Shown here one piece after another: positions 32,027-48,184 of a stretch of DNA of 51,284 bases. This DNA is from Parapedobacter tibetensis (GTDB taxonomy: Bacteria; Bacteroidota; Bacteroidia; Sphingobacteriales; Sphingobacteriaceae). Within the stretch, counting starts at the first letter, position 1, and the number at the start of each line of letters is the position of its first letter. Made by a program: the position numbers and the translations under genes. The notes under the pieces were generated by a model, which was not told where the DNA came from, searched no databases, and worked only from the letters and a program-made list of their open reading frames with translations. The DNA lies in the NCBI RefSeq assembly GCF_024704835.1, contig NZ_JAMXBE010000012.1, forward strand, positions 155,484 through 206,767, written 5' to 3'.

Positions 32027-32359
32027 ATGGAATTGACTAAGGAACAAAAACTGATGCAAACCATCATCAACAGAACATGGGAAGATGAAGGTTTTAAACA
32101 AGAGCTAATTGCCAATCCTATGGCTGCCATTGAGAAGTTAACCGGCGAACGGGTTGTAATACCAGAGGGGAAAACCCTGGTGGTACGAGACCAAACAGAT
32201 GAGAACACCATCTACATCAACATCCCGGCCGAGCGGAATTTCGACGATATGGAATTGAGTGAGGAGCAACTCGAAGCTGTGGCCGGGGGAAGCGCCTTAC
32301 TTGATATCATCATGGTGCTCCCACCGAAACTCACCACAATACCCGTAATTATACGGTAG
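32027..32359 (+). CDS. NHLP-family RiPP precursor peptide 1
   Basis: The 110-residue product has an 88-residue nitrile-hydratase-like leader (MELTKEQKLMQ, WEDEGFKQELIANPMAAIEK, RDQTDENTIYINIPAE). It ends in LSEEQLEAVAGG, the double-glycine site for a C39 peptidase. The 22-residue core starts SALLDIIMVLPP and contains one Ser, two Thr (15 and 16) and no Cys. It therefore cannot form a lanthionine on its own, though it can be dehydrated. It is the first of four tandem precursors on one strand, 61 bp before the next. Confidence 0.95.
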   Translation: MELTKEQKLMQTIINRTWEDEGFKQELIANPMAAIEKLTGERVVIPEGKTLVVRDQTDENTIYINIPAERNFDDMELSEEQLEAVAGGSALLDIIMVLPPKLTTIPVIIR

Positions 32360-32420
32360 AAACGACTTTTATATGATATCATTTAGTAATCTTTTTATAA
32401 ACAATTAAAATTATCGTATC

Positions 32421-32744
32421 ATGGAATTCACACAAGAGCAAAAACTAATTCAAACCATTGTCAACAAGGCGTGGGAAGACGAAGCGTTCAAACAAGAACT
32501 GGTTGCCGATCCGGTAGCCGCTATTGCAAAACTTACCGGTAAAACAATCGAACTGCCCGAAGGGAAAAAACTAGTGGTACGTGATCAAACCATCGGATCC
32601 GTCATCTACATCAACATTCCGGCAAAGCCAGAATTGGATGCGGAGCTGAATGAGGAACAATTAGAAGCCGTGGCAGGCGGGGTTATAGATGGGGGATGTT
32701 TCCCACTTCCCTTTCCTACGTTTCCCATATTTCGGTTATTATAA
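32421..32744 (+). CDS. NHLP-family RiPP precursor peptide 2
   Basis: The 107-residue product has an 87-residue NHLP leader, closely similar to precursor 1 (WEDEAFKQELVADPVAAI, RDQTIGSVIYINIPAK, EEQLEAVAGG). The core is 20 residues: VIDGGC then FPLPFPTFPIFRLL. It has one Cys, at position 6, ahead of its only Thr (13), and alternates Pro with bulky hydrophobics. It pairs with precursor 1 as the Pro-rich type. The RBS region is AT-rich without a clear Shine-Dalgarno, as usual in Bacteroidota. Confidence 0.95.
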   Translation: MEFTQEQKLIQTIVNKAWEDEAFKQELVADPVAAIAKLTGKTIELPEGKKLVVRDQTIGSVIYINIPAKPELDAELNEEQLEAVAGGVIDGGCFPLPFPTFPIFRLL

Positions 32745-32776
32745 TCAGTTAATAAACAACATAAAATCAAAAAATC

Positions 32777-33115
32777 ATGGAAGTTACACAAGAACAAAAG
32801 TTGAATGCTCAAGTCGTACAAAGAGCATGGGAAGACGCCCAATTTAAGAGTGAGTTGATGGCGAATCCAGTTGAAATAATGGAAAAATTAACGGGTCATA
32901 AGATTAATTTACCCGAAGGACAAAAAATGGTGGTAGTAGACCAATCAAATGAGTCTACAGTTTACTTTAATATTCCAAGAAAAGTAGACTTTGATACGCT
33001 GGAGCTGACTGAAGAGCAGTTGGAACAGGTAGCGGGTGGGATTACCCCAACATTTATAGCAGTTGGCTATGGCTTTGCTGTCGGAGTTGCGGTTTGGGCG
33101 GCAACCGGTGACTAA
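32777..33115 (+). CDS. NHLP-family RiPP precursor peptide 3
   Basis: The 112-residue product has an 88-residue leader (MEVTQEQKLN, WEDAQFKSELMANPVEI, TEEQLEQVAGG). The 24-residue core begins ITPTFIAVGYGFAV and ends with WAATGD. It holds Thr at 2, 4 and 22 and no Cys, and is rich in Gly, Ala and Val. Codon use is visibly more AT-rich than in precursors 1 and 2. It lies 32 bp after precursor 2 and 34 bp before precursor 4. Confidence 0.95.
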   Translation: MEVTQEQKLNAQVVQRAWEDAQFKSELMANPVEIMEKLTGHKINLPEGQKMVVVDQSNESTVYFNIPRKVDFDTLELTEEQLEQVAGGITPTFIAVGYGFAVGVAVWAATGD

Positions 33116-33149
33116 AGAACAAATAATGTAAATATAAAACTAAAAAAAA

Positions 33150-33506
33150 ATGAATATCACATTAGAACAACAGGAAAAAGGTGCAGAGTTGATGAAAACC
33201 CTTACCCAGAAGGCTTGGGAAAGTGCATCGTTCAAAGAGCAATTGGTAAAAAATCCTGTAGCAGCAATTGAGGAGGTTACGGGAAAGAAATTAGCAAACT
33301 TTGATGATAAAAGAGTAGTTGTAGAAGATCAAACGGATGAATCGGTAATCTATCTCAATATTCCGGCAAAAATTGATATAAATGAGCTTGAGTTAACCGA
33401 AGAACAATTGGAGACGATTGCCGGCGGAGTGACTCCTGCTGCATATGTTGCCGGTGTGGCTCTCGGTATTGGTGTATGTGCACTTGTTGATTATATGAGA
33501 GGTTAA
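33150..33506 (+). CDS. NHLP-family RiPP precursor peptide 4
   Basis: The 118-residue product has a 93-residue leader with a small N-terminal insertion relative to the others (MNITLEQQEKGAELMK). It ends in LTEEQLETIAGG. The 25-residue core begins VTPAAYVAGVALGIGVC and contains one Thr (position 2) and one Cys (position 18). A thioether would enclose a long ring if any forms. It shares the xTP start and Gly-rich body with precursor 3. A perfect hairpin follows 25 bp after its stop codon. Confidence 0.95.
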   Translation: MNITLEQQEKGAELMKTLTQKAWESASFKEQLVKNPVAAIEEVTGKKLANFDDKRVVVEDQTDESVIYLNIPAKIDINELELTEEQLETIAGGVTPAAYVAGVALGIGVCALVDYMRG

Positions 33507-33530
33507 AATTTAATTTCTTAACTTTACTAC

Positions 33531-33571
33531 TTTTTAAAACAACTACTCCTCATGGGTAGTTGTTTTAAAAA
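33531..33571 (+). terminator. Perfect hairpin between precursors and modification genes
   Basis: TTTTTAAAACAACTAC (33531-33546) and GTAGTTGTTTTAAAAA (33556-33571) form a perfect 16-bp stem with a 9-nt loop. It lies between precursor 4 and the small membrane protein gene. It would terminate most transcripts and, by leakage, let the enzymes be made at lower level than the precursors. Confidence 0.8.
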
Positions 33572-33606
33572 GTTTTCATCGTTCGGATCAACTTTTAGCA
33601 TGAATT

Positions 33607-33792
33607 ATGAGTAATAGAAATTTAAGTTTACCTTTTATCATAGTCGCTATAATATTAGGAATCACAATATATAAAGATTTCGATTTCAATACATTTACGT
33701 TCAAAGAAACGTGGTTGGATGTCGTATATATTGTTACGTTTATCTATGTCTTGATTATTCTGTTTAAGAAGAAGAAAAAAGTAGATAAATAA
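33607..33792 (+). CDS. Small two-helix membrane protein
   Basis: The 61-residue product has two hydrophobic segments (LPFIIVAIILGITIY near residues 8-22 and VVYIVTFIYVLIILF near residues 39-53). It ends with a Lys-rich tail KKKKKVDK that would stay cytoplasmic. It sits between the precursor hairpin and the dehydratase gene. No family was recognised. Size and placement suggest an immunity or accessory protein for the peptide product, but nothing in the sequence shows this. Confidence 0.6.
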   Translation: MSNRNLSLPFIIVAIILGITIYKDFDFNTFTFKETWLDVVYIVTFIYVLIILFKKKKKVDK

Positions 33793-33825
33793 TTTAGAAG
33801 CGATGAATAATCGTTACGCACCCGT

Positions 33826-35379
33826 ATGGAAAACAGTACAGAATATTTGGTCAGAAATGAGCCTGACAAGATTCCGTTTGTCGATATACTGCTGTCTTAT
33901 GCTGAGCGTTTCTTATATGACCTGGAACAGATAAATGCATCCAATGAGTTAATCGACAAACTTCATCTAACTCTTTTGCAGGAGCTCAGTTTAGTTGCGG
34001 AAATAACGTTGCAAGAGGAGTTAGCATATTTTAAAGGCAATGAAACAGGCACCTATCAGGAGTTTGTAGAAACAACCAATTTAGTATTGGCAGTTAAATA
34101 CCCCGTCCTGGATAACATCTTAAAAACCATTGCAAATAACTATTTAAAACATATACAAAATATATTTTCAAATTTTAGTAAAGACTTTTATGTTATTGCA
34201 GAAGTTTTCTCTTTAGAAACTAATAAAAATATCATCATTGAGGACATAGACACAGGCCTTGGTGATGGGCATCGTGGAGAAAGTACTGCCTTAATTACGT
34301 TGGCTGATGGTACAAAGCTGATATACAAACCCAGGAATATTGATGTAGCGATTTCATACAACCAATTTATCGACTGGGTTAATCGCAAATTAACTACCGA
34401 TCTGAAAACGATAAAATGTCTGAACTGCGGGAGTTACGGCTGGCTGGAGTTTATTCCTTATCGGGCAGCCAAGTCTCCCGATGAATTGCAGGAGTATTAT
34501 TACAAAGCAGGAATACTCTTAGCAGTTACCCTCCTTTTGGGAAGCAAAGACTGCCATTATGAAAACATCATCGCATCGGGAAGTAATCCGGTTATTGTCG
34601 ATCACGAAACGATCATCCAGCCGGTCCTTTCAAATCAATCCATCCGGACGTGGGATGATCAGCACAACGTGCCTCATTTTTCGGTGCTGGAAAGCATGTT
34701 GATCGTTAGCCGACACACAGGTATTCCTTTAGCGTATGCCGGATATGGTAGCAAAGGAAATGTTGAAGCTATGGATTTAGCGAAGAAAGTAATTGACCCG
34801 AATACCATTGATTCTAGGAGAAATACCCGTTTTGTTTTCAGGAAACTGGTGAAAGATAACGTACCATTATATAAGGATACCCATGTGTTTGCTAATGCTT
34901 ACAAGAATTCTTTTATAGCCGGTTTTTCAGCCACCTACGATGTATTTATGGATTCGAGAGAAGAGTTAATATCTTGCAATTCCCCAATACAATTCTTTGA
35001 TAATCGGAAAATCCGTTATGTATGGAGACCCTCTTTTGTATATTTCAGCATCTTGAAGTACATGCGAAGTGCGTCTTTTATGTCGAGTTTTGAGACATAC
35101 CGATCAAAATTGTATGAATTGATGTCAAAAGCTTATCAGAAAGGAAATTTTAGCGATTATAAATTTATCCTCAAATGCGAGATGGAGCAACTATTAGCTG
35201 GCAACATCCCTTTATTTAATCTTGACAGTTTAGCTTGTCATTTAGAAGAAGATAAGTCATTTAAAATCTTCAGGTATCATTGTATTGAAAACATTAAGCG
35301 TAGGGTTCGTTCCTTATCGATTCATCACAAAAACGAACAAATCGAACACATTACAAAATGGCTGACGACAATCAGATGA
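33826..35379 (+). CDS. Stand-alone LanM-type lanthipeptide dehydratase domain (DUF4135), no cyclase domain
   Basis: The 517-residue product covers only the dehydratase half of a class II LanM, whose usual length is 900-1100. Kinase/elimination residues known from CylM are recognisable: Asp147-Gly-His149 (GLGDGHRGES), Lys168 (LIYKPR), Asp242-Cys-His244 and Asn247 (SKDCHYEN), Asp259-His-Glu261 (VDHETI). Arg397 is followed six residues later by Ser403 where LanM enzymes usually have Thr. After that the protein ends without LanC-type zinc ligands. It should phosphorylate Ser/Thr of the core and eliminate phosphate to give dehydroamino acids. An in-frame stop at 33808 supports this start. Base composition is more AT-rich than in the flanking housekeeping genes. 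Confidence 0.88.
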   Translation: MENSTEYLVRNEPDKIPFVDILLSYAERFLYDLEQINASNELIDKLHLTLLQELSLVAEITLQEELAYFKGNETGTYQEFVETTNLVLAVKYPVLDNILKTIANNYLKHIQNIFSNFSKDFYVIAEVFSLETNKNIIIEDIDTGLGDGHRGESTALITLADGTKLIYKPRNIDVAISYNQFIDWVNRKLTTDLKTIKCLNCGSYGWLEFIPYRAAKSPDELQEYYYKAGILLAVTLLLGSKDCHYENIIASGSNPVIVDHETIIQPVLSNQSIRTWDDQHNVPHFSVLESMLIVSRHTGIPLAYAGYGSKGNVEAMDLAKKVIDPNTIDSRRNTRFVFRKLVKDNVPLYKDTHVFANAYKNSFIAGFSATYDVFMDSREELISCNSPIQFFDNRKIRYVWRPSFVYFSILKYMRSASFMSSFETYRSKLYELMSKAYQKGNFSDYKFILKCEMEQLLAGNIPLFNLDSLACHLEEDKSFKIFRYHCIENIKRRVRSLSIHHKNEQIEHITKWLTTIR

Positions 35380-36557
35380 ACATTTTAACTATACCCTACT
35401 TTGCTGGTGGACTCTCGCATTTGATTCCGCTGTATGTTTTACATCATCGGTGGTTAAGCAATATTGCCGGAATCAACAATCAGTTTTTGGTTAATAGTCG
35501 CGCACAGAAATTCCTCGTGATGCACGGCATACGCTGTATGCCTTTAGCTTATGATTTTGAAGAGCATCTGCTTACGTCCGATCATGCTTTGCGGACAAAA
35601 GCGTATGTCATGGAAATGGAAAATAGGGCTTTTGGTATGGCAAAGCCATCGTTGATTATCGAAGATACTTCTTTTTTTACTCCGCTGATCGCTGAGAAAA
35701 ACCAACTGCCAAGAATTTCAATTCAGCGAACCGGGATTTTTAGATCAATTGATAAGCGATTTAGAAACAGTAGTCATGTACATTCACTACAGAAAGGCGG
35801 TTATATTCAAAAATCTGATTTCTTTTCAGATCGGAACAATTTAGAGGTACCTACATTTAATGATTCCGATTCGTACTTTTTGCAACAATACGCAAAACCA
35901 AAAGTTAAGATTATTCCTGGAATACCTACAATCGAACGTTTACCGGAGAACATGGAAGATCGGGAATCCTATTTCTATTCCGGGCCGCTGATTGTTATGG
36001 ATAAACCTTCGAAGAATCTATCGAATAGATTGGATGAATTTCTAGATATCAATAAACAAAAACCAATTGTTTTTATCACTACCGGTACAATAGACAAAAC
36101 GCCGATAGCAAATTTTATAGCGTTCTTTGCAAAGCGCAACTACGCTGTTATTACGACCTGTGATTGTGAAATAAACGAAACCTACAAGCGAGCGGTTTTT
36201 TATAATAAACTGCTTCCCCTAAACTATATATGCGGGATTTCAAATTTAGTGATTCATCAATGCGGTTCAGGAATGTACCATTACCCAATAATGAACAGGG
36301 TACCTTCCTTAACAATAGGTACTCAATGTTACGACCGAGAAGACATAGCACTAAGGTTACAGGAACTTGGTGTTTCTGGTCACATACCTCACCCAAATGA
36401 TAATCCTAACTATTGGAATATTTTTCTCGAAATGGTGAATAAATTTGAGAAAAATATATTAACAGATTATGACATGATGGACAAACTACAAATTGAAATA
36501 AACGAAACCATGTCAAATTTTAAAATGGAAAAAGTTATTCAATACGCCTTGGCATAA
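35376..36557 (+). CDS. GT-B glycosyltransferase-like protein (UGT/MurG fold)
   Basis: The product is 393 residues from ATG 35376, which overlaps the dehydratase TGA as ATGA, a translational-coupling arrangement. An in-frame ATG at 35358 is also possible. The N-terminus MNILTIPYFAGGLSHLIPL is a GT-B entry, and FITTGTIDKTPI resembles the strand-loop before the nucleotide-sugar site. VIHQCGSGMYHYPIMNRVPSLTI followed by DREDIALRLQELGVS matches the C-terminal donor-binding region of family-1 transferases (HxGxGT..., NA..L). The key Asp/Gln pair is not certain, so it could be a non-catalytic relative. Its position suggests glycosylation of the modified peptide. Confidence 0.72.
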   Translation: MNILTIPYFAGGLSHLIPLYVLHHRWLSNIAGINNQFLVNSRAQKFLVMHGIRCMPLAYDFEEHLLTSDHALRTKAYVMEMENRAFGMAKPSLIIEDTSFFTPLIAEKNQLPRISIQRTGIFRSIDKRFRNSSHVHSLQKGGYIQKSDFFSDRNNLEVPTFNDSDSYFLQQYAKPKVKIIPGIPTIERLPENMEDRESYFYSGPLIVMDKPSKNLSNRLDEFLDINKQKPIVFITTGTIDKTPIANFIAFFAKRNYAVITTCDCEINETYKRAVFYNKLLPLNYICGISNLVIHQCGSGMYHYPIMNRVPSLTIGTQCYDREDIALRLQELGVSGHIPHPNDNPNYWNIFLEMVNKFEKNILTDYDMMDKLQIEINETMSNFKMEKVIQYALA

Positions 36558-37325: not shown

Positions 37326-37976
37326 ATGGATAGCCAAAATACCCTTACAGACTTGAGATCATCAGACACCCTGTTGAAATTGGTCGACAGCATTAAGAAC
37401 CCGCTGTCATCCATTATAGCAGCCAATGACGTAGCTACTAAACGAACCCGGAATCATCATTCCCATAAGACAGCAGCAGAGGTGACTTTACAAAACAGCA
37501 AGATGATTGCAGATTTAATCGATGAAGTTGTTAAACATGCTTCAACGCGCCACGTTCAAAAACAGGCTCCGTTGATATTTGAATTGTATGAAACGCTCCC
37601 TCACGTCCAGGCTATGTGTTCGGATAGCATTGACCCCAAAAAGATTTCCAAGACCGATCAAACCTGGCTAATGAATTTGGAACATGTAGTTTTCGAAGAG
37701 ATAAAGAAAAGCCAAATCAACTTGTTTAGCTTGGCATTCGAAGTCTCCGTAAGTGAACGTCAATTGCACCGTAATATCAAGAAATTCCTTTCCCTAACAC
37801 CAAACAAATACATACGGATATTAAAGTTGCATAAAGCTAAAAATCTGCTAGAAGATTATGCGTATAGGACGATAGCAGAAGTAGCCTATGCCGTAGGTTT
37901 TAGTGATACTTATTATTTTTCAAAAATGTTCCACAACCAGTATGGTATCATGCCCAGGGAGTTGCTTCCCAAATAG
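37326..37976 (+). CDS. AraC-type transcriptional regulator with HisKA-like N-terminus
   Basis: The 216-residue product ends in a two-part AraC helix-turn-helix (LFSLAFEVSVSERQLHRNIKKF and RTIAEVAYAVGFSDTYYFSKMF, residues about 132-203). The N-terminal 75 residues (LVDSIKNPLSSIIAANDVA, then LQNSKMIADLIDEVV) resemble the HisKA dimerisation helices of HTCS sensors. Asp21 stands where the phospho-acceptor His would be, and no HATPase or receiver domain is present. This looks like a shortened HTCS. It lies downstream of operator A and is the obvious regulator of the peptide locus. Confidence 0.85.
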   Translation: MDSQNTLTDLRSSDTLLKLVDSIKNPLSSIIAANDVATKRTRNHHSHKTAAEVTLQNSKMIADLIDEVVKHASTRHVQKQAPLIFELYETLPHVQAMCSDSIDPKKISKTDQTWLMNLEHVVFEEIKKSQINLFSLAFEVSVSERQLHRNIKKFLSLTPNKYIRILKLHKAKNLLEDYAYRTIAEVAYAVGFSDTYYFSKMFHNQYGIMPRELLPK

Positions 37977-37995: not shown

Positions 37996-38253
37996 GTGCA
38001 TTCAGCTTTGGAACTGACAAAAAGACAACGGCAAAGCCAACAATTGATCGCCTATCTGATTAAGGTTTGTTGGAAAAACCCAACCTTTAAAAAGCGGTTT
38101 ATTGCATCCCCCGTAGAGACCATTGAAAAAGTAACCGGCAAGCCAAGCCATTTGCCGGAAGGAATGCGGGTAGTAGTGGAAGATCAGTCCGATTCTTCAA
38201 TCATCTATTTAAACATCCCAGCAAAACCACCCGGTATTTCTATGCTCAAATAA
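37996..38253 (+). CDS. Leader-only NHLP paralogue without cleavage site or core
   Basis: The 85-residue product starts with GTG (37996); alternatively TTG at 38008 would give ELTKRQRQ, lining up with the start of precursor 1 (ELTKEQK). It aligns along the whole NHLP leader (FIASPVETIEKVTGKP, LPEGMRVVVEDQSDSS, IIYLNIPAKP). It then stops at PPGISMLK, lacking the acidic ELTEEQLE helix, the Gly-Gly site and any core. It cannot yield a peptide product by itself. It could regulate or bind the exporter or modifying enzymes as a free leader, or be a decaying precursor. Confidence 0.75.
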   Translation: MHSALELTKRQRQSQQLIAYLIKVCWKNPTFKKRFIASPVETIEKVTGKPSHLPEGMRVVVEDQSDSSIIYLNIPAKPPGISMLK

Positions 38254-38421: not shown

Positions 38422-38943
38422 ATGAAACGCGTACTTTTTTTATTAGGCCAACTGAATGATCTGGACATCGAATGGATGATCAACAACGGTCATAAAGCAT
38501 CCGTAAAAGCCGGGGATGTATTGATCCACAGGGATGAGGAGATTGAAAATCTTTACATCGTACTCGCTGGACAACTCTCCATCCGAGACGGTATTACCAA
38601 CATTAATGAGATTGCTACAGTTGGCGCAGGTGAGATTTTAGGAGAAATGTCCTTTTTGGAAACCAGGCCTCCATCTGTATCCGTAATGGCAACGGTGCCC
38701 TGCGAAGTCTATGCGATTTCCCGTACGTTGATCGCTGAACGCATGCAACTCGATATCCAGTTTAGAGCCAATTTCTATTATGCACTGGCACTCTTTCTAT
38801 CCAATAGGTTGCGTAAAACCACGGACCAATTGGGATACGGCATACCAGAAGAAGCAGACCTCATAGACCATAACATTCTTGAAGGTGTCGCACAAGCAGG
38901 GGCTAGGTTTGACCAGATCCTAAAGAAATTCGCTGAGGTATAA
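38422..38943 (+). CDS. Cyclic-nucleotide-binding-fold protein of the NHLM export operon
   Basis: The 173-residue product is a single CNB domain (VKAGDVLIHRDEEIENLYIVLAGQLSI, residues about 28-54) without a DNA-binding domain. The phosphate-binding cassette is GEMSFLETRPPSVSVMA (74-90). At the position where cAMP receptors usually have Arg contacting the cyclic phosphate there is Pro84, so cAMP binding may be weak or lost. Stand-alone CNB proteins commonly accompany NHLM exporters. An adenylate cyclase gene lies at the end of the same gene run. Confidence 0.85.
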   Translation: MKRVLFLLGQLNDLDIEWMINNGHKASVKAGDVLIHRDEEIENLYIVLAGQLSIRDGITNINEIATVGAGEILGEMSFLETRPPSVSVMATVPCEVYAISRTLIAERMQLDIQFRANFYYALALFLSNRLRKTTDQLGYGIPEEADLIDHNILEGVAQAGARFDQILKKFAEV

Positions 38944-39004: not shown

Positions 39005-40582
39005 ATGAATTTGAAAACAGGTATACACTTTTGCATCTTTTTATTGGTTTTACCATTTGGTACGTTTGGCCAGTCGGCTATTGAGGGAGATTTAATCATG
39101 CTATCCGAATTGACGTTATCAAAGAGTCCACTTATCCAAAGAAATGCGTTGGAAATCGACCAAGCTGAGGCCAATCTGCGTACACAACGGAGCACTTTCG
39201 ATTATCAGTTGTCATCTGGTATCAATGCCAGCAGGAACAACCTTACACCTTTTAATGCAGATCCACGTCAGCAATTTTTGACGTCCAATTTAAAAACCAA
39301 TAACCTTGATTTCTATGTGGCCATGCAAAAAAAGCTACGCACTGGGATGGTAGCCGATATTAGCACTAATTACTCTCGGGTATATGACAACTTCCCATTC
39401 AACACATACAATGAAGAGGTAGGGCCAAATGTTTCAGACCATGCTACATCGACTACCCTTTCCCTTACACAGCCTTTATTAAGGGGCAACAGTGTAAAGG
39501 TAAACACCGCATTTGAAAACGCTGCCAAACTGGATGTGGAAAGCGCTTATCAAAATTTCGAATTAAATGGGGCTTTTGAAGTGCTGCAGATGGGAACAAC
39601 CTACTGGCAGTATTTGGGAGCATTCAGAAGTTTGGAAATCTTCCGGGAAAACGAAGACCGGGTCAGAAATGTCCTGGAAATCACCCAAGAACTCGTTAAA
39701 GCGGATAAAAAACCGGCAAGTGACCTCGTGCAAATCAAGGCCGACCTCGCTGAGCAGGAACGGCAGACAACTGTGGCTCTTCAAAACTTGTACAACGCAC
39801 GGGTAAATTTGGGTAGGGCCATCGGGCTAAACGAGGCACAAAGTAGATCCATAGGAAATCCTACAAATGACTTTCCAGCCATTGTAGCGTCACGATTCAA
39901 TGAAGAGGTCGACGTTGAATCTATGATGGCATTGGCCAGGAACCGTAGAAGTGACATCCAAGCATTTCAAAATACTCAAGATGCCCTAGCACTTCAGCTT
40001 TCAGCCACTAAGAATGCCGTGTTGCCGATATTGGACCTAGCTGGCTTTTATACCTATGGAGGAGCGGCTGTAGGTGGTGGCGTGGATCGCTTTTTTAACA
40101 CGTTTGGAAACAGGCAAGGACGCAACCACATAATAGGCCTAAGCCTTACATTTTCATTGCCGGTCAACAATAATTTAGCCCTCGCCAATCTAGCAAAAAG
40201 CAAAATCGCCTTGACCGACCAGAACATATCCTATGAAAATCTATTGAGAAACATCGATTTGAATGTTAGCATCGCATTAAACAACCTTGAAAACAGCGTG
40301 TCGATACTTGAAAAAGCTAAAGAAACACTGGAATACTACCAAGAGGTATTCGACAATGAGCAGGTAAGGTTCCAGAATGGTCTGACCACCCTACTGAACC
40401 TCATTTTGTTTCAAGAGCGCCTGACCTTCGCGCAATTGGAATACCTAACGGCACAACAGCAATTTGCTGTATCCATCATCAATCTTCGATATGAAACCGG
40501 CACACTCATTTCGATGAAGGCAGGCAAAGAAATACAATCGATTGAACGAACAGCATTTTATACAATACCTAGTATTCATTAA
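39005..40582 (+). CDS. TolC-family outer-membrane efflux protein
   Basis: The 525-residue product has a signal peptide (LPFGTFGQ) and two repeats of long coiled-coil helices and barrel strands (SLTQPLLRGNSVKVN near 160, TFSLPVNNNLALANLAKSKIAL near 380). ITQELVKADKKPASDLVQIKADLAEQER is the typical helical hairpin. It forms the exit duct for the peptide exporter. It lies 61 bp after the CNB gene and 12 bp before the adaptor gene. Confidence 0.93.
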   Translation: MNLKTGIHFCIFLLVLPFGTFGQSAIEGDLIMLSELTLSKSPLIQRNALEIDQAEANLRTQRSTFDYQLSSGINASRNNLTPFNADPRQQFLTSNLKTNNLDFYVAMQKKLRTGMVADISTNYSRVYDNFPFNTYNEEVGPNVSDHATSTTLSLTQPLLRGNSVKVNTAFENAAKLDVESAYQNFELNGAFEVLQMGTTYWQYLGAFRSLEIFRENEDRVRNVLEITQELVKADKKPASDLVQIKADLAEQERQTTVALQNLYNARVNLGRAIGLNEAQSRSIGNPTNDFPAIVASRFNEEVDVESMMALARNRRSDIQAFQNTQDALALQLSATKNAVLPILDLAGFYTYGGAAVGGGVDRFFNTFGNRQGRNHIIGLSLTFSLPVNNNLALANLAKSKIALTDQNISYENLLRNIDLNVSIALNNLENSVSILEKAKETLEYYQEVFDNEQVRFQNGLTTLLNLILFQERLTFAQLEYLTAQQQFAVSIINLRYETGTLISMKAGKEIQSIERTAFYTIPSIH

Positions 40583-40594
40583 AACGATAGCGGT

Positions 40595-41854
40595 ATGTCT
40601 ACACCATTTTTTAGAAAAGCGGCATTGGAAAAACTCTCCACACCAGAGAAATTGGACCAACTGATCAAAGTCACCGAGCCGAGGGCTTGGGTTACCCTCA
40701 CAGCCATCGCCGTTCTTTTAGCGACAGCAATTGCGTGGTCGTTTTGGGGGAACGTAAAAACCAAACTTAACGTGGTAGGCGTATTGTTGGGCGGTGAAGT
40801 TCATGAAGTGGTGTCTACATCGCAAGGCCAACTCATCAGTTTGAAAGTGAAGATCGGTGACCAAGTCAAGGAGGGTGACGTCATTGCCAAGATCGAACAA
40901 CCGCAAATATCCCAGCAAATCGAGGAAGCCAAAGCACTCTTGGTTGAGCAGCAGTTTGAATTGGAGCGGTTGAAATCCTTTGGGTCACAAGATTCCAAGT
41001 TGCAAAATGAATTTATCCGCCAACAGCAATCAAGTATCCAATTGCAAATCGGAACCCAAAGAAAGACACTGGAATTTCTCAGAAATCAGCTCGATACCGA
41101 AAAAGACCTACTCAAGAAGGGGTTGATTACCACCTCCCAAGTAATCAATACAGAACAGCAGATTGAAGGAGCCATCAACCAAATCGAGAACTTAAAAGCG
41201 CAATCAGCACAAACTTCTTCACAAAAACTAAACCTGGATTTTGATTCTGGCCAGCGAGTCAACTTAGTCAAACAGCGTATTGCACAAACCGAAAGGAATA
41301 TTGAGCAGCTACTGGAGCGATACGACATACAATCCAACATAAAAAGCCCTTATAAAGGCGAAGTAGTAGAAGTGTTGACCGATGCAGGGATCATGGTGGC
41401 ACAAGGGGCACCGTTGTTCAAACTCAAAAATCAGGATGAACTTACAGGTGATTTGCGCGGGGTACTTTATATACCGTCTCAGGATGGGAAAAAAATAAAA
41501 GTTGGCATGGAAGCATTGGTAGCGCCGTCAACCATACAACCTCAAGATTTCGGGTTCATGAAGGGTACGGTTACCTATGTATCGGATTTTCCGATTACCC
41601 AAAAAGGCATGATGACTTCGGTCAAAAATGACCAATTGGTTCAAAGCCTATTGGGGGTAGGAGCGCCGTTTGAAGTTCATGTAAAATTTGAAAAAGACAC
41701 CGCCGCTTATAGCGGTTTTCGATGGACTTCAGCTAATGGCCCCAAAGTGCAAATCAAAGAGGGCACATCATGCCTGGGAAAGGTAACCGTCAAATCAGAA
41801 CCGCCCATTACCATTGTTGTTCCAGCGCTTAAGAAATTCTTTGATCTATATTAA
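40595..41854 (+). CDS. HlyD-type membrane-fusion protein (NHLM secretion adaptor)
   Basis: The 419-residue product has an N-terminal membrane helix (AWVTLTAIAVLLATAIAWSFW near 30-50). It has split lipoyl motifs (VVSTSQGQLISLKVKIGDQVKEGDVIAKIEQPQ near 72-103, and IKSPYKGEVVEVLTDAGIMVAQGAPLFKLK near 248-276) and a long coiled coil between. It bridges the ABC exporter and TolC. It is 12 bp before the peptidase-exporter gene. Confidence 0.93.
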   Translation: MSTPFFRKAALEKLSTPEKLDQLIKVTEPRAWVTLTAIAVLLATAIAWSFWGNVKTKLNVVGVLLGGEVHEVVSTSQGQLISLKVKIGDQVKEGDVIAKIEQPQISQQIEEAKALLVEQQFELERLKSFGSQDSKLQNEFIRQQQSSIQLQIGTQRKTLEFLRNQLDTEKDLLKKGLITTSQVINTEQQIEGAINQIENLKAQSAQTSSQKLNLDFDSGQRVNLVKQRIAQTERNIEQLLERYDIQSNIKSPYKGEVVEVLTDAGIMVAQGAPLFKLKNQDELTGDLRGVLYIPSQDGKKIKVGMEALVAPSTIQPQDFGFMKGTVTYVSDFPITQKGMMTSVKNDQLVQSLLGVGAPFEVHVKFEKDTAAYSGFRWTSANGPKVQIKEGTSCLGKVTVKSEPPITIVVPALKKFFDLY

Positions 41855-41866
41855 ATACCGCTAAAC

Positions 41867-44086
41867 ATGATAAGTAATGTCTTGAAGCTTAAGAAACATG
41901 GCCATCGCGTAAAGACACCGACGGTACTCCAAATGGAAGCCGTTGAATGCGGTGCAGCAGCATTGAGTATCATGCTAGGGTATTTCGGCAAATTTGTCCC
42001 TTTGGAAAAATTGCGAATTGCTTGTGGCGTTTCCAGAGATGGCCTCAAAGCTACCAACCTATTAAAAGCTGCCAGGGAGTACGGATTGGAAGCCAAAGGT
42101 TATGCCAAGTCCATTGAGAAGCTCAAGGAAATGGAGATGCCTGCTATCGTTTTTTGGAATTTCAATCATTTCCTAGTCATTGAAGGGTTTACAAAAGATA
42201 AAGTCTACCTGAGTGACCCTGCACAAGGACGGTATCAGGTCAGCCATCAAGAATTTGACGAAGCGTTTACCGGTGTTGTAATGACCTTCAAACCCGGCGA
42301 GGGGTTTGAAAAAGGAAATGAAAAGACTGGTTTAATACCATCCTTAGCTACCCGGATTTCCAGTTCCAAATCAAGTGTTATTTTCATTATCCTGGCTAGC
42401 TTATTTTTGGTTATCCCGGGGCTCATCATCCCCTCATTTACCCAAGTTTTTATCGATCGGTATTTGGTCAATCAAGTTACTGGGTTTGTGATGCCATTAC
42501 TGTTGGTCATGGGTGGCATTCTGTTAATCAATTCAGCTTTGGTATACATTCAGCAATACTATCTACTCCGATTGGAAACCAAGCTTGCCTTAACCACCTC
42601 CAGTAAATTCCTGTGGCATGTATTCCACTTGCCCATTGCCTTCTTCACGCAACGATACAGCAGCGAAATTGGCAATAGGGTAACACTAAACGACAAGGTG
42701 GCGAGGCTCCTGAGTGGTGAGCTTGCCACGGCATTCCTGAATGTCATTGTTGTAATTTTTTACGCCATGTTGATGTTTTCATACGATGTGGTCCTAACCA
42801 CGATAGGCATTGCAATGGCGGCCATTAATGTCTTTGCTTTAAGACTTGTCTCAAGAGCGCGAAAAGACGGCAACCGGCGTCTCATCAATGAAAATGGCAA
42901 GCTGCTCGGCACCACCACCTCTGGAATAAGTATGATAGAGACCTTGAAGGCCTCCGGGAGAGAAAATGATTTCTTCATGAATTGGGCTGGTTACCTAGCC
43001 AAGGTAATCAATGCACAGCAGGAATTGGGCTGGCTGACCATCAAATTGAATATTATCCCGCCATTGCTCACCTCGTTGACCACAACCTTGGTTTTGGGCA
43101 TTGGTGCGATGCGCGTGATGGATGGCCATATGACACTGGGTATGCTGGTCGCCTTCCTGTACCTGATGAACAACTTCATTCGTCCCGTCAACCAACTGGT
43201 CTCTGTTGGCAGTTTACTGCAAGAGACCGACGGCGACATGAACCGGATCGATGATGTCTTGAATTATGGGATATCAGAGGAGTTTACCCAGCAAGAGCAC
43301 TCAAACCCTATAGATACAACAGCAAACGAACAGCGCGAAGAAGAAGCAGCTGAAAGCACCGCTAAACTTATCGGGCATGTAGAAATCAGAGACCTGTCTT
43401 TTGGTTACACGACAACGATGCCCGCGTTGATAGCCGATTTTAATTTGACACTAAAGCCGGGCCGTAGGGTAGCATTGGTTGGCGGTTCCGGCAGTGGAAA
43501 GTCTACCATTGCACGCTTGGTAGCCGGCCTCTATACCCCGTGGTCAGGATCGATACGATTCGATGGGAAGGCAAGGACCGATATCCCGCGACATTTCGTC
43601 AATGAATCCGTGGCAGTTATTGATCAAGAGGTATTAATGTTTAAGGGTACTGTAGCAGAAAACATTTCCTTTTGGGACACCAAAATGCCGGAAAGCCAGA
43701 TCATAAAATCTGCCCATGATGCTGCGATCCACGAAACCATAGCCGCCCGGCACAGTGCCTATGATAGCGAAGTGGCCGAACGTGGCACAAACTTCAGTGG
43801 TGGACAACGCCAGCGGCTGGAAATCGCCAGAGCACTCTCGCTCAACCCATCGGTTTTGATCATGGATGAAGCAACCAGTGCACTAGACCCTACATCGGAA
43901 AAATCGGTCATGGACAATATCAAAAGAAGAGGCTGCACTTGCCTGATTGTGGCACATCGACTAAGTACGATCAAGGATTGCGATGAAATCATCGTGCTGA
44001 AATTCGGAAAGATTGTAGAACGGGGAACACATACTGAATTGCTAGCCCAAAACGGGCTGTATGCCGATTTGATCAGTTCAAAATAA
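41867..44086 (+). CDS. NHLM peptidase-containing ABC exporter (C39 domain)
   Basis: The 739-residue product starts with a C39 leader peptidase: Cys28 in QMEAVECGAAAL, His101 in WNFNHFLVIEG and Asp117 in LSDPAQG. A six-helix membrane domain follows (about 165-450), then an ABC ATPase with Walker A GGSGSGKST near 538, signature FSGGQRQRLEIARAL near 643 and Walker B VLIMDEATSALD. It should cut precursors after the Gly-Gly site and export the core. It is 10 bp before the second exporter gene. Confidence 0.96.
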   Translation: MISNVLKLKKHGHRVKTPTVLQMEAVECGAAALSIMLGYFGKFVPLEKLRIACGVSRDGLKATNLLKAAREYGLEAKGYAKSIEKLKEMEMPAIVFWNFNHFLVIEGFTKDKVYLSDPAQGRYQVSHQEFDEAFTGVVMTFKPGEGFEKGNEKTGLIPSLATRISSSKSSVIFIILASLFLVIPGLIIPSFTQVFIDRYLVNQVTGFVMPLLLVMGGILLINSALVYIQQYYLLRLETKLALTTSSKFLWHVFHLPIAFFTQRYSSEIGNRVTLNDKVARLLSGELATAFLNVIVVIFYAMLMFSYDVVLTTIGIAMAAINVFALRLVSRARKDGNRRLINENGKLLGTTTSGISMIETLKASGRENDFFMNWAGYLAKVINAQQELGWLTIKLNIIPPLLTSLTTTLVLGIGAMRVMDGHMTLGMLVAFLYLMNNFIRPVNQLVSVGSLLQETDGDMNRIDDVLNYGISEEFTQQEHSNPIDTTANEQREEEAAESTAKLIGHVEIRDLSFGYTTTMPALIADFNLTLKPGRRVALVGGSGSGKSTIARLVAGLYTPWSGSIRFDGKARTDIPRHFVNESVAVIDQEVLMFKGTVAENISFWDTKMPESQIIKSAHDAAIHETIAARHSAYDSEVAERGTNFSGGQRQRLEIARALSLNPSVLIMDEATSALDPTSEKSVMDNIKRRGCTCLIVAHRLSTIKDCDEIIVLKFGKIVERGTHTELLAQNGLYADLISSK

Positions 44087-44095
44087 TATCAGCGT

Positions 44096-47011
44096 ATGTC
44101 AGAAAGAAAAAAAATCAGTTTGGGCGCAAACAACTCCTTGGTCTTGGGGAGCCATGATAAATGCTGGATGGTTGTCGCGGGTGAAGTGGATGTGTTTTAT
44201 GTGAGTGTTGACGAAAATGGAAACTACTGCAGCCAGCTACATCACCTATATAGCGCCAAAAAGGGAGAAATTCTATTCAGCCTATTAACACGCCCGCTGG
44301 AACGCGGCATCAAACTCGTTGCGCAAGGAGCTGAGGCCAAGCTCATCGAATTGGATAAAAACCAATTGATGAATGTAGACCATAAGTTTCTAAAATTCTA
44401 CATCAATAAATGGATACAGAAATTATCCGAAAAACTGATTCAAGAAAACATTCCCCGTGTTTATAAGCCGTTAAAGGAAGGTATGGACATCATGTTATCA
44501 GAACATGAAATTGCTTATCCTCCCAAGGATATCGTGTGGTGCAGTAAAGTCGAGGGAGATGTACTTAAATATGCAGGTTCCATTTCATACGATTCCACAG
44601 CGCAATATCCCTATCCATTCCCTGTAGGCCGTAACCTATGGATAAAAGCTTTGGGTAACGATGTCAAATTGAAAGTGCTGGATACAAGGGCAGTAGTAGC
44701 AGATGATATTTTTTTCATGCTCGCGTTGAACGACATCCAAGAATACTTCTATAAGCAGGTAATTGACGTTGAAAAGTCGGCGAAAACTAAGGAAAAGGAT
44801 CGGATCGTCAATAAAATATATGCCGATGATGAAACCCTGAATACCACATTGCAGGAACTGGGAGCCATTGTGGACAAAGACCGCTCAAAGAAACGCAGCT
44901 TCACCCACACACCCAAGACAACCCAAGACGATTCCGTCTTAGCCACCTGCCAACTTATCGGAGAAACCGTCGGGTTTAGGTTCATAGCGCCGAAATTGAT
45001 GGAATCCTATACAAATAGTCCAACCCGTCAACTATTTGCCATTGGGCAATCTTCCAACGTTAGAATCCGAAAAGTGATTTTACGGGGCGCCTGGTGGAAG
45101 GAAGAAAACGGACACCTATTGGCCTTTACCAAGGATGAGAAGCAACCTGTAGCGTTGCTCCAAAGCAAAGCGAACACCTATACCCTGAAGGATGTCCGAA
45201 CGTCTGTTGATATTCCCATAAACGAAGACATTGCCCAGTCACTTGAGCCGGTAGCCTATATGTTCTTTTTTGCATTTAATGGCAAAATGGCGTCGATCAA
45301 GAAAATCTGGAATTTCGCCGTCCGCGGTGTGCAACAAGATGCTGGCTATTTAGTCCTGGCGGCTTTCATAGGAAGTCTATTAGGGCTATTGGTGCCCGTC
45401 CTATCGGGGGTTATGTTCGATGATGTGATTCCAACGGCCGACCGAACAATGTTGGTTGAAGTTTTTGCAATCATGCTGATGATCGGCATCATAACAGCAC
45501 TACTACAGTTGATCCAAGGTGTTTTACAGCTTAGGGTAGAAACCAAATCCAACCTGAACCTCCAAGGGGGGCTCATGGACCACCTGCTGCGCCTACCGGT
45601 ATCCTTTTTCAGGAAATACACGGCGGGGGACTTAACCAATAGGGCGCTCAGCATTAACGCCATACGGCAAATCCTTTCGAATACCGTGATAACATCTGTG
45701 TTAAGCGGTACATTTTCGCTCGTCAATTTAGGTTTACTTTTCTATTATAATACGCGCCTGGCTTGGATAGGGGTCGGTTTGGCAGCTATTGCGATCATTT
45801 TTGTCGCTAGCATTGGATGGTTGAAGTTGGCCTACGACCGAGATATCTCAACCAAACAAGGCAATATCCAAGGCTTCTTATTTGAATTTCTTTCCGGAAT
45901 CACCAAAATACGGATTACAGGAGCAGAGAAACGCATATTTTCGCTTTGGGCCAATCAGTTTTCGACATTGAAGAAACTTGGATTTAAGTCAGGGAGTCAT
46001 CAAAATCGCATTCAGGTATTTAATGAATCCTATCCCCTACTCACCAATATCTTCTTCTTTTCGTTTATCTACTATACCGTCAGCAACGCCACATCAGCAA
46101 ACGCCGCAATGATTTCTGTAGGTGCATTTATGGCATTTATCACGGCCTTCAATCAATTTCTGTCCGATGCCTTGAAGATGAGTTTATCTTTGATTTCCTC
46201 TTTAAATGTTGTGACACTATATGAACGTGTAAAACCCATCTTGGAAGAAACCCCTGAGTCGACGGATCACAATGCCGACCCTGGGGAATTAAGTGGAGCG
46301 ATTGAATTGAATTCCATTTCGTTCAGGTATCACGAAAACCAGCCGTTGATATTGAAGGATATTTCGCTCAAAATTAAACCGGGGGAAATGATTGCTTTTG
46401 TCGGCCCATCCGGTTCCGGAAAATCAACCATCATGCGGATATTATTGGGTTTTGAGGAGGCCGAAGCTGGCTCGGTCTATTATGACGGAAATGCCTTTGA
46501 CTCGTTAAATAAAGATCTCGTACGCCAACAGGTCGGTGTGGTCTTGCAACATGGCTCACTCATGCCGGGCAGCATTTATAAAAATATCATAGGCAATTCC
46601 GAGCTCAGTCTTGATGCTGCATGGGAAGCGGCAAGGATGGCCGGAATGGAAGAAGATATAAAAGCGATGCCCATGGAAATGCATACCGTGGTAAGCGAAG
46701 GCGCCGGAACGTTTTCCGGGGGCCAGCGGCAACGCCTAATGATTGCCAGAGCTATCGTGCATAAACCGAGGTTGATATTCATGGATGAAGCAACAAGTGC
46801 TCTGGACAACAAAACCCAAAGTATTGTTGCCGAAAGCCTGGATAACCTACAAGCAACGCGTATTGTAATTGCTCATCGGTTGAGCACAATTGCCAATGCG
46901 GATCGAATATACGTACTCGATCAAGGTTCAATCGTAGAATCAGGCACTTATCAAGAACTCATGCACAATGGAGGGCTTTTTTCAAATATGGCCAATAGGC
47001 AAATTGCTTGA
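44096..47011 (+). CDS. Second NHLM ABC exporter with N-terminal sensor-like domain
   Basis: The 971-residue product has no C39 domain. It has a long N-terminal soluble part (residues about 1-410) whose first 90 residues (ISLGANNSLVLGSHDKCWMV, AKKGEILFSLLTRPLER) resemble a cyclic-nucleotide/cupin-type barrel. The membrane domain begins near LVLAAFIGSLLGLLVPVLSG, and the ATPase has Walker A GPSGSGKST near 770, FSGGQRQRLMIARAI near 875 and FMDEATSALD. It is the NHLM partner that probably forms a heteromeric exporter with the preceding protein. Its stop codon abuts the next ATG. Confidence 0.94.
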   Translation: MSERKKISLGANNSLVLGSHDKCWMVVAGEVDVFYVSVDENGNYCSQLHHLYSAKKGEILFSLLTRPLERGIKLVAQGAEAKLIELDKNQLMNVDHKFLKFYINKWIQKLSEKLIQENIPRVYKPLKEGMDIMLSEHEIAYPPKDIVWCSKVEGDVLKYAGSISYDSTAQYPYPFPVGRNLWIKALGNDVKLKVLDTRAVVADDIFFMLALNDIQEYFYKQVIDVEKSAKTKEKDRIVNKIYADDETLNTTLQELGAIVDKDRSKKRSFTHTPKTTQDDSVLATCQLIGETVGFRFIAPKLMESYTNSPTRQLFAIGQSSNVRIRKVILRGAWWKEENGHLLAFTKDEKQPVALLQSKANTYTLKDVRTSVDIPINEDIAQSLEPVAYMFFFAFNGKMASIKKIWNFAVRGVQQDAGYLVLAAFIGSLLGLLVPVLSGVMFDDVIPTADRTMLVEVFAIMLMIGIITALLQLIQGVLQLRVETKSNLNLQGGLMDHLLRLPVSFFRKYTAGDLTNRALSINAIRQILSNTVITSVLSGTFSLVNLGLLFYYNTRLAWIGVGLAAIAIIFVASIGWLKLAYDRDISTKQGNIQGFLFEFLSGITKIRITGAEKRIFSLWANQFSTLKKLGFKSGSHQNRIQVFNESYPLLTNIFFFSFIYYTVSNATSANAAMISVGAFMAFITAFNQFLSDALKMSLSLISSLNVVTLYERVKPILEETPESTDHNADPGELSGAIELNSISFRYHENQPLILKDISLKIKPGEMIAFVGPSGSGKSTIMRILLGFEEAEAGSVYYDGNAFDSLNKDLVRQQVGVVLQHGSLMPGSIYKNIIGNSELSLDAAWEAARMAGMEEDIKAMPMEMHTVVSEGAGTFSGGQRQRLMIARAIVHKPRLIFMDEATSALDNKTQSIVAESLDNLQATRIVIAHRLSTIANADRIYVLDQGSIVESGTYQELMHNGGLFSNMANRQIA

Positions 47012-48184
47012 ATGAAATCCATGGCTGGCTTAACAGAAAGATACGAGTTGTTGAAGCGTTATACGACTAATCCGTTGGTAATAAAAGCGGTTCTTGGCTA
47101 TACTCAAAACAAGTTTACACCGAAATCCCGGAATAGTCATTTCCTATCATTTCCACTACCCGATGAATCTTATGTCTCTTCTTGGGCTAAGTATGAAGAA
47201 GAATCTGAGAAAAATGGCGTGTTTTCGACATTGAAATCCTACTTGCCCCAATTGCAATTTCCCATCAAGCAAGGCATTAGCCTATCAGACGAATACCGGG
47301 CGGCCACGTTAAGCGGGACTACAATGAATAATAAGGCATCCCAAGCTGGCCTTATACTCAATGATGCCGAATCTTTAACGCTTCAAATCCATCAAAGCAT
47401 AGCCGGTAAAATACCGGTACTCACCACGGCCAATGACGATGATTTTTGCAGTCTTATTCAGGCACTATCGCATAAAAACGAACCTGTGGTAATACCCAAA
47501 TCAATGGGTGCAGCACTCATTAAAGGCATCAATAACTGGGGTCGGATCAAGGCGCTGCGGCAAAAATGGCAAATGGAGAATCCTTTTGGCAATTGGAAAG
47601 CAACGTTTTCAAGTGTTGTATTGCCCCAGAAGTCGAACTACCAAGACAACATTATCATTTTAAGCAGAAAGCCATATAGTGGCGTCTCATCCCAACAACT
47701 CGGCATCCCAAATGAACAATGGTTAGCACAATCTATGGAAATCAGGTTGGCTCATGAATGTACACACCTCTTTACCCTCCGTTACTACGGGCACATGGCG
47801 AATAATATGCATGATGAGTTGCTGGCCGACTATATGGGCATCACCGAAGTGTTGGGCAAATTTAATGCAGATTGGTTTTTGAAATTCATCGGATTGGAGA
47901 GGTACCCACAATACCGTGCCGGCGCAAGGCTGGAAAACTATCTTGGAAAACCTCCAATGGCAGCGGAAGCCCTTGAAATACTCAAAACAATACTGGTAAA
48001 AGCAACCAAGCATGTTGCCTTGTTTGATGAACATGTCGGCACACCATCCGACATGATGGATAAGGTACAACGTCTCTTAAGCCTATGTTCAATGGATTTA
48101 GTGGAAATGTCGAGCGAACAAGGTACTGAAAGGCTTATCGCCGCATATAACAGCATGCAAATTAACGTACTAAGTAATGGTTAA
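47012..48184 (+). CDS. Putative zinc metallopeptidase in the NHLM operon
   Basis: The 390-residue product has an HExxH motif, His248-Glu-Cys-Thr-His252 (RLAHECTHLFTLRYYG). A downstream acidic motif DELLADYMGI (268-277) could supply the third zinc ligand. No signal peptide or membrane segment is visible, so it is cytoplasmic. The N-terminal 200 residues are not recognised. It starts directly after the exporter stop codon and overlaps the cyclase gene by 8 bp. It may trim the leader or core, or degrade failed precursor, but this is inference. Confidence 0.7.
   Translation: MKSMAGLTERYELLKRYTTNPLVIKAVLGYTQNKFTPKSRNSHFLSFPLPDESYVSSWAKYEEESEKNGVFSTLKSYLPQLQFPIKQGISLSDEYRAATLSGTTMNNKASQAGLILNDAESLTLQIHQSIAGKIPVLTTANDDDFCSLIQALSHKNEPVVIPKSMGAALIKGINNWGRIKALRQKWQMENPFGNWKATFSSVVLPQKSNYQDNIIILSRKPYSGVSSQQLGIPNEQWLAQSMEIRLAHECTHLFTLRYYGHMANNMHDELLADYMGITEVLGKFNADWFLKFIGLERYPQYRAGARLENYLGKPPMAAEALEILKTILVKATKHVALFDEHVGTPSDMMDKVQRLLSLCSMDLVEMSSEQGTERLIAAYNSMQINVLSNG

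Follow-up and report, generated by a model that had tools for sequence, protein, structure and literature searches.

A proteusin-type gene set with a cyclase-less LanM dehydratase and a candidate two-peptide product in Parapedobacter tibetensis

LanM enzymes are known for building rings. Two members that lack a cyclase, PoyF and EmbM, are already described in the available part of PMC9505594, and the preliminary description of the locus presented here as an undescribed system was therefore too strong. PoyF, from the polytheonamide (proteusin) pathway, shares with this locus a cyclase-less LanM domain and, by our proposal, a substrate with an NHLP leader and a single dehydration near the N-terminus of the core. 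In the dehydrazole pathway, CcaM likewise belongs to the DUF4135 enzymes and has an NHLP-like peptide as its substrate (available part of PMC10676384). A literature search whose coverage of subscription papers was thin found no description of the present gene set, and the likely target proposed below, position 2 of two paired cores, is new.

Composition of the gene set

The window, by which we mean the whole stretch of 51,284 nucleotides that was analysed, encodes four precursors, a full LanM dehydratase domain with no cyclase, a partner protein with a GT1 fold and an NHLP exporter that includes a peptidase, as established by sequence and structure comparison. The gene set extends to about position 50150, where it includes regulators and exporter genes. 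Its features are as follows.

32027..32359, + strand: NHLP precursor 1, core SALLDIIMVLPPKLTTIPVIIR; TIGR03793 62.4 bits; Gly-Gly present
32421..32744, + strand: NHLP precursor 2, core VIDGGCFPLPFPTFPIFRLL; TIGR03793 62.8 bits; Gly-Gly present
32777..33115, + strand: NHLP precursor 3, member 1 of a conserved pair, core ITPTFIAVGYGFAVGVAVWAATGD; TIGR03793 64.5 bits, TIGR03949 27.8 bits
33150..33506, + strand: NHLP precursor 4, member 2 of the conserved pair, core VTPAAYVAGVALGIGVCALVDYMRG; TIGR03793 48.6 bits, TIGR03949 22.4 bits
33607..33792, + strand: small membrane-type protein, 61 aa; related short ORFs in 8 further loci
33826..35379, + strand: stand-alone LanM-type dehydratase, 517 aa, no cyclase; DUF4135 E 3.8e-89
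35376..36557, + strand: glycosyltransferase-like protein with GT1 fold (GT-B); start revised from 35358
37326..37976, + strand: AraC-family regulator; PF12833 5e-19
37996..38253, + strand: NHLP leader-like ORF with no Gly-Gly site or core; GTG start; TIGR03793 32.5 bits over positions 3-63 of 77, below cut-off
38422..38943, + strand: cyclic nucleotide-binding protein; PF00027 4e-16
39005..40582, + strand: TolC-type outer membrane protein; PF02321 8.6e-35
40595..41854, + strand: NHLP-system HlyD adaptor; TIGR03794 324.5 bits, cut-off 156.2
41867..44086, + strand: NHLP export ABC transporter with peptidase; TIGR03796 1055.9 bits, cut-off 853.3
44096..47011, + strand: second ABC transporter subunit; PF00005, PF00664; 60.7% identical relative in locus L035
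47012..48184, + strand: DUF7005 protein; PF22541 1.7e-139
48177..50150, + strand: GAF-PAS-nucleotide cyclase overlapping the DUF7005 gene; PF00211 8.5e-35, PF01590 6e-32

The four NHLP precursors proposed earlier hold up well, as evident by the fact that three exceed the cut-off of the leader model TIGR03793 (50.9 bits), the fourth falls only 2.3 bits short, and all four carry a Gly-Gly site. Together with the exporter and its peptidase, whose TIGR03794 and TIGR03796 scores lie above cut-off, these leaders are the features expected of a proteusin-type set. The adjacent precursors 3 and 4 both pass the cut-off of the class IIb bacteriocin model TIGR03949 (21.5 bits), as do 6 of 10 relatives scanned, with the other four remaining below it. 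Neither this conserved pair nor Ser/Thr at position 2 as a likely target figured in the preliminary description.

Position makes the 61-aa membrane-type protein a possible immunity protein; no relatives of its ORF were found in 10 other loci that we inspected. On a Spirosoma oryzicola plasmid, the gene at the place of the second ABC subunit is annotated as an NHLP export permease/ATPase.

The dehydratase and the absence of a cyclase

The dehydratase ORF covers 376 of the 378 positions of DUF4135 and aligns to positions 6-519 of the 932-position LanM model, which confirms that it corresponds to the dehydratase half of a LanM; no LanC domain was found C-terminal to it. An assembly frameshift or a truncated LanM is ruled out because the dehydratases of relatives have a similar length and end. 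This is the only DUF4135 protein in the genome. Structure comparison, using a model with a pLDDT of only 64.7 that is poor at residues 240-345, indicates the same dehydratase fold and active site as in the class II lanthipeptide synthetases LicM2 and CylM; unlike these enzymes, the window protein lacks a LanC domain, and the alignment stops at synthetase residues 621/622. Fourteen dehydratase-only proteins form one clade (support 100/98) that is separate from 15 long LanM-type proteins, with the very divergent L079 left out of this tree; in another tree it sits on a long branch outside the clade. The clade occurs in at least five families, namely that of the window and four others, and related gene sets are present in other families of Bacteroidota.

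The earlier statement that the window encodes no cyclase agrees with a profile search of the genome's contigs, which gave no PF05147 (LanC) match on contig C4, where the window lies, and with a six-frame reading of the window for LanC motifs, in which none were seen. It had also been suggested that a separate LanC be sought elsewhere in the genome. Two PF05147 matches do exist, but both lie on contig C56 beside split LanB genes, in a class I cluster, and a LanC in the same regulon was therefore rejected. In its annotated half (49000-98507), the S. oryzicola plasmid has an entry for LanB but none for LanC.

Lanthionine rings might nonetheless be made by the class I LanC acting in trans or by a non-enzymatic route, and some relatives carry a Cys at core position 5 (STPFC, STPLC) that could close on residue 2. 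We consider ring formation quite improbable, however, given that cores 1 and 3 of the window have no Cys, that the C56 LanC sits beside a split LanB, and that 5 of 13 dehydratase-only genomes tested yield no LanC match.

A second alternative is that the enzyme only phosphorylates its substrate, yielding a phosphothreonine peptide in the manner of EmbM and phospeptin. The window enzyme retains eight of nine CylM phosphorylation and elimination residues and carries Ser at the place of T512, where the mutation T512A abolishes elimination by CylM (available part of PMC4550811), so a phosphorylation-only outcome is possible. This place is occupied by Thr in 25 of 27 DUF4135 rows compared, and by Thr in 13 and Ser in two of 15 dehydratase-only rows (L079 included). 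EmbM offers a precedent, being described in the available parts of PMC9505594 and PMC9259500 as a LanM with no cyclase whose phosphorylation sites are Thr3 and Thr4, and the window Thr lies early in a short core, a position also reported in EmbA. However, the change from Thr to Ser is conservative, and among the nine dehydratases linked to a glycosyltransferase (GT) gene, all retain D252, H254, K274, D347, H349, N352, D364 and R506 (of which CylM requires D252, H254 and R506 for elimination) and eight, the F. limi orthologue among them, have Thr at T512. Phosphorylation without elimination therefore appears rather unlikely, though it is the strongest of the alternatives that we weighed.

Position 2 of the paired cores and the glycosyltransferase-like partner

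Core 3 of the window carries Thr2 and no Cys, and Thr2 is the sole Ser/Thr of core 4. Ser/Thr is found at position 2 in 17 of 18 pair peptides from the nine GT-linked dehydratase loci (S. sordidisoli core 4 has Ile2), and in none of the six pair peptides from three loci in genomes devoid of DUF4135. Neither group has Ser/Thr at core positions 8-10. For 17 of 20 dehydratase-locus cores with Ser/Thr at position 2, none of 20,000 residue shuffles reached the observed number, the maximum being nine. These counts leave out L031 (judged to share its F. limi contig with L034), L042 and L043 (in which we recognised no pair peptides), L082 and L083 (partial DUF4135 in frames of 752 and 665 aa) and the very divergent L079, and treat genomes G1288 and G788, which look alike, as one.

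PoyF, a LanM dehydratase domain that acts on Thr1 of an NHLP peptide (available part of PMC9505594), suggests another outcome, in which dehydration at position 1 would give an unstable enamine and, once the leader is removed, an alpha-keto group as an N-terminal cap. Some relatives do have Ser/Thr at position 1, but this holds for no more than 6 of the 20 pair peptides, and the pair cores of the window begin with Ile1 and Val1, making this cap very improbable.

The association between the dehydratase and Thr2 could also reflect shared ancestry rather than function, with the dehydratase acting on other precursors of the set. The loci are related, and on the GT tree genomes with and without the dehydratase can be contrasted independently only twice, which is too few for significance; the contrast run entered Thr2 as equal to the dehydratase trait (equal locus-level values in 12 rows), and thus it counts contrasts only. 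Moreover, in dehydratase-only loci with no GT, just half of the adjacent pair peptides (5 of 10, as judged by eye) carry Ser/Thr at position 2 (L077 0/2, L078 0/2, L095 2/2, L096 2/2, L097 1/2). Against shared ancestry stands the strong enrichment at position 2 and the closest contrast, between F. hydrophilum, which has the dehydratase, and G734, which does not and one of whose GT copies is its sister (support 100/99). Both pair cores of G734 lack Thr2, whereas Flavobacterium precursors 1-4 retain 7 of 7 Ser/Thr common to the two references. Two details of this contrast count against a functional link: precursor 7 has lost one of five, and core 3 could be short of three residues instead of having exchanged Thr for Leu. 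We regard shared ancestry alone as an improbable explanation.

The relatives of the GT-like protein begin at MNIL, which makes 35376 its probable start, where start and dehydratase stop overlap in an ATGA. Structure comparison identifies a GT-B fold of GT1 type, and the GT-B assignment first proposed is upheld. Its identity is settled at the level of fold only, and the sequence evidence is weak: no Pfam family scores above cut-off, identity to the natural-product GT1 enzymes CalG1, GtfD and VinC is 15-17%, the matches to MGT (0.036) and EryCIII (0.1) and to UGT-like neighbours by profile comparison (E 0.055) are marginal, and a PDB profile search returned VinC alone (E 2). Its RiPP context also differs from that of these enzymes. 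A PHROGs search gave nothing for this protein or the 61-aa protein, and a plasmid search with the GT found S. oryzicola only.

Whether the GT travels with the dehydratase, as had been asked, receives a divided answer: 9 of 14 dehydratase-only proteins have it at their locus, but 4 of 13 closely related GT loci have no dehydratase. Three possible targets were considered. Action on Thr2 is not favoured because GT loci without Thr2 occur. No residue common to the pair cores was found, with core 3 of L040 having no Ser, Thr, Cys, Tyr, Asn or Trp. The PTFP-type motif in relatives of precursor 2 is unsupported, since PSPTFP also occurs in the GT-less L077.

Proposed product and comparison with known systems

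As judged from sequence, we find it somewhat probable that this proteusin-type set makes a two-peptide bacteriocin-like pair with one dehydrobutyrine at position 2 of each peptide and no rings. The stand-alone dehydratase would bind the NHLP leaders and use ATP to phosphorylate Thr2 in the cores of precursors 3 and 4, and elimination of the phosphate would leave one dehydrobutyrine before Pro3. No ring would be expected to follow, given that core 3 is free of Cys and that the set encodes no cyclase. The exporter peptidase would then cleave after Gly-Gly to release two short, hydrophobic, glycine-patterned peptides, which may act jointly on target membranes. The GT could add a sugar to one peptide, or to something made with the peptides, and the 61-aa protein may confer immunity.

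More tentatively, and with less than an even chance of being right, these loci might represent a previously overlooked family of two-peptide bacteriocins in Bacteroidota that spreads horizontally. Its lineage of cyclase-less LanM enzymes would have become a single-site dehydratase that installs Dhb at core position 2 (X-Dhb-Pro) of both peptides; with a sugar added by the GT1 protein, the products would be pore-forming pairs that are dehydrated, perhaps glycosylated and free of rings. If a conserved cyclase-less clade does go with such a pair, a single dehydration would by itself be a product feature worth having. Genomes with and without the dehydratase provide a natural contrast that yields a precise prediction, namely one site in two peptides, and the gene set is also a candidate source of a glycosylated proteusin.

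Class IIb two-peptide bacteriocins (lactobin A/cerein 7B, TIGR03949) likewise comprise two neighbouring short peptides with Gly-Gly leaders that score above the family cut-off. However, the window set has NHLP leaders and modification enzymes, and its relatives do not all reach that cut-off. CcaM requires a fused zinc-independent cyclase-type domain and has YcaO partners, according to the available part of PMC10676384. EmbM resembles the window enzyme in lacking a cyclase and, by our proposal, in acting on a short core with an early Thr, with core 3 likewise being free of Cys; in the accessible descriptions, however, its substrate has a Nif11-type leader and its elimination residues are reported missing, whereas the window enzyme keeps D252, H254 and R506 and replaces T512 with Ser. 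PoyF, compared here by its partly available description only, targets Thr1 and works alongside radical SAM and methylating enzymes, while the window set would use a position-2 site and combines several distinct precursors, two of which form a pair, with a GT1 partner.

The gene set and its surroundings

As proposed in the preliminary description, four NHLP precursors, a stand-alone dehydratase and a coupled glycosyltransferase-like protein (GT) are all present in the window, with the GT start overlapping the dehydratase stop as ATGA. The GT start was placed on the basis that relatives begin with MNIL.

32027-33506, four NHLP precursor genes
33607-33792, 61-aa membrane-type protein
33826-35379, dehydratase, 517 aa
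35376 (start), GT-like gene
37996-38253, NHLP leader-like ORF that starts with GTG and lacks both GG and core; it lies between the genes for the AraC regulator and the cyclic nucleotide-binding protein
rest of the set, to 50150: AraC regulator, the leader-only NHLP ORF just listed, cyclic nucleotide-binding protein, TolC, NHLP HlyD adaptor, NHLP peptidase-transporter, second ABC protein, DUF7005, GAF-PAS-cyclase

At the place of the leader-like ORF, some relatives carry a leader with a TDYESLYDSLR-type tail. The export genes are flanked by the cyclic nucleotide-binding protein (38422-38943) and the GAF-PAS nucleotide cyclase (48177-50150), and because both gene kinds recur in several relatives, this arrangement suggests cyclic nucleotide control of the set. 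Precursor 2 belongs to a class with a Pro-rich Thr motif in the core (PTPTFP, PSPTFP or PTFP), also found in related loci L033 (6551-6904), L034, L030, L037, L040, L041 and L077.

From the precursors through the dehydratase to the GT, G+C content is 0.37-0.41; the regulator and exporter genes have 0.44, and the DNA upstream of the set has 0.475. This shift, together with the lack of DUF4135 in the eight same-genus genomes listed, fits a recent acquisition of the set. A second GT copy (47% identical; own-genome contig C4, 91980-93155) lies ~100 kb away. It belongs to a cluster that also encodes N- and C-terminal LanB proteins and contains a short GG ORF with a core beginning TTVPCG.

By sequence, precursors 3 and 4 belong together as a conserved pair. 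Each scores above the 21.5-bit cut-off of TIGR03949, the class IIb bacteriocin model (27.8 and 22.4 bits), as do six of the ten relatives scanned (both peptides of L033, L030 and L038). Two others match below the cut-off (first peptide of L029, 20.6; L040, 19.7), and two give no match at E 0.01 (second peptide of L029; L077). Core 3 is identical (STPFCAIGYGFVVGIALWSATHE) in Hymenobacter rigui (L036) and on a Spirosoma oryzicola plasmid (L029), which suggests recent exchange between families.

A dehydratase-only family

DUF4135 occurs in 12 of 399 genomes of the family, the other 11 instances lying within 939-1105 aa frames. The alternative that an assembly frameshift had shortened a LanM was weighed against the relatives. 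A GT-based scan of a collection holding one genome per species (84,980 species) yielded 11 named loci, seven of which contain a 511-531 aa dehydratase; an eighth GT-linked dehydratase is on the S. oryzicola plasmid and the ninth is that of the window. Two further scans added L077, L078, L079 and L095-L097, giving 15 dehydratase-only proteins. A branch supported at 100/98 separates fourteen of these (L079 was excluded from this count) from 15 LanM-type proteins of 899-1105 aa. Judged from these similar relatives and their single branch, the short cyclase-less dehydratase is no artefact. Whether the GT travels with it differs between loci: it does in the nine GT-linked ones, but L077, L078 and L095-L097 have no GT. 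Accessory enzymes vary across the same kind of NHLP set (L077:12124-13386, L041:11309-12532, L029:13326-13937, L033:12428-13093) and include a JmjC-type oxygenase and a methyltransferase, together with a FeeM-like protein matched weakly, below its cut-off.

A separate LanC, sought in the rest of the P. tibetensis genome, is present, but its PF05147 matches sit within a class I lanthipeptide-type cluster (contig C56, 300585-309142: split LanB, full LanC and partial LanC). PF05147 has no match in five of the 13 dehydratase-only genomes tested (F. limi, H. rigui, G1236, G699 and G668). It lies inside 1002- and 1025-aa LanM frames in Aquimarina and Chryseobacterium Leaf201, marks one LanC elsewhere in each of the genomes of Rudanella, G1212 and G1299, and gives one partial match in S. 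sordidisoli (25.2 bits) and two, below the cut-off, in F. hydrophilum. The dehydratase-only sets L095 and L096 encode two similar Cys-containing cores (KTVPIGSCQFLSCFG), lantibiotic-like by eye; no LanC was seen within either locus, and each genome has one elsewhere.

Core position 2 as the candidate site

Among 20 pair peptides from ten dehydratase loci, 17 carry Ser/Thr at core position 2 (17/18 in the nine GT-linked loci, 0/2 in L077), versus 0/6 from three loci without dehydratase. By locus, the counts are 9/10 versus 0/3 (Fisher p 0.014, relatedness ignored). For Chryseobacterium Leaf201, precursors and enzyme are on different contigs, both near contig ends, and one cluster was assumed. 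Dehydratase loci without GT, scored by eye, give 0/2 (L078), 2/2 each for the near-identical L095 and L096, and 1/2 for L097, whose post-GG cut is ambiguous by one Gly; with L077 the total is 5/10.

In the closest contrast, genome G734 has two GT copies, one sister to the F. hydrophilum GT (100/99), and no dehydratase. Its pair cores begin VLP and ILP, versus ITP in F. hydrophilum and F. limi, and the position 2 codons are TTA and TTA versus ACT and ACC in F. hydrophilum. A three-residue loss from G734 core 3 is also possible in the MAFFT alignment, with Thr2 gone either way. At shared positions, G734 keeps 7/7 Ser/Thr in precursors 1-4 and 4/5 in precursor 7 (Flavobacterium numbering), and it also retains the C-terminal Ser of core 3; the GG of its precursor 6 escaped this automated comparison, and that core was checked separately. 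Tenacibaculum provides a second independent contrast (100/98). Dehydratase presence needs three changes on the GT tree, and the independent contrasts number two pairs, at which significance is out of reach.

The sole Ser/Thr of window core 4 is Thr2, with one Cys fifteen residues on, so any action on this core, if the enzyme acts on it at all, would fall at Thr2. Core 3 of the window has no Cys. Position 2 of the pair cores is the likely target of the dehydratase.

Relation to known cyclase-less LanMs

The claim of an undescribed system goes too far, as cyclase-less LanMs are already known. PoyF acts at Thr1 of an NHLP substrate (PMC9505594), whereas the site in the window set is probably position 2. 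EmbM phosphorylates Thr3/Thr4 (PMC9505594; PMC9259500). The favoured product of the window set would be X-Dhb-Pro with no rings; the main rival is a phosphothreonine peptide. According to Haft et al., LanM-like enzymes adjoin NHLPs in Nostoc and Azospirillum, and a Microscilla NHLP is accompanied by export genes (PMC2887384). As described by Walker et al., precursors were sought within ≤7 genes of a LanC-domain protein, and Cys-free LanM-associated precursors in some clusters were not scored as lanthipeptides (PMC7268733); with this design, the survey would probably tend to miss the cyclase-less dehydratase and pair family. Relative to these systems, the new elements are the two-peptide pair, the link to position 2 and the GT1 partner.
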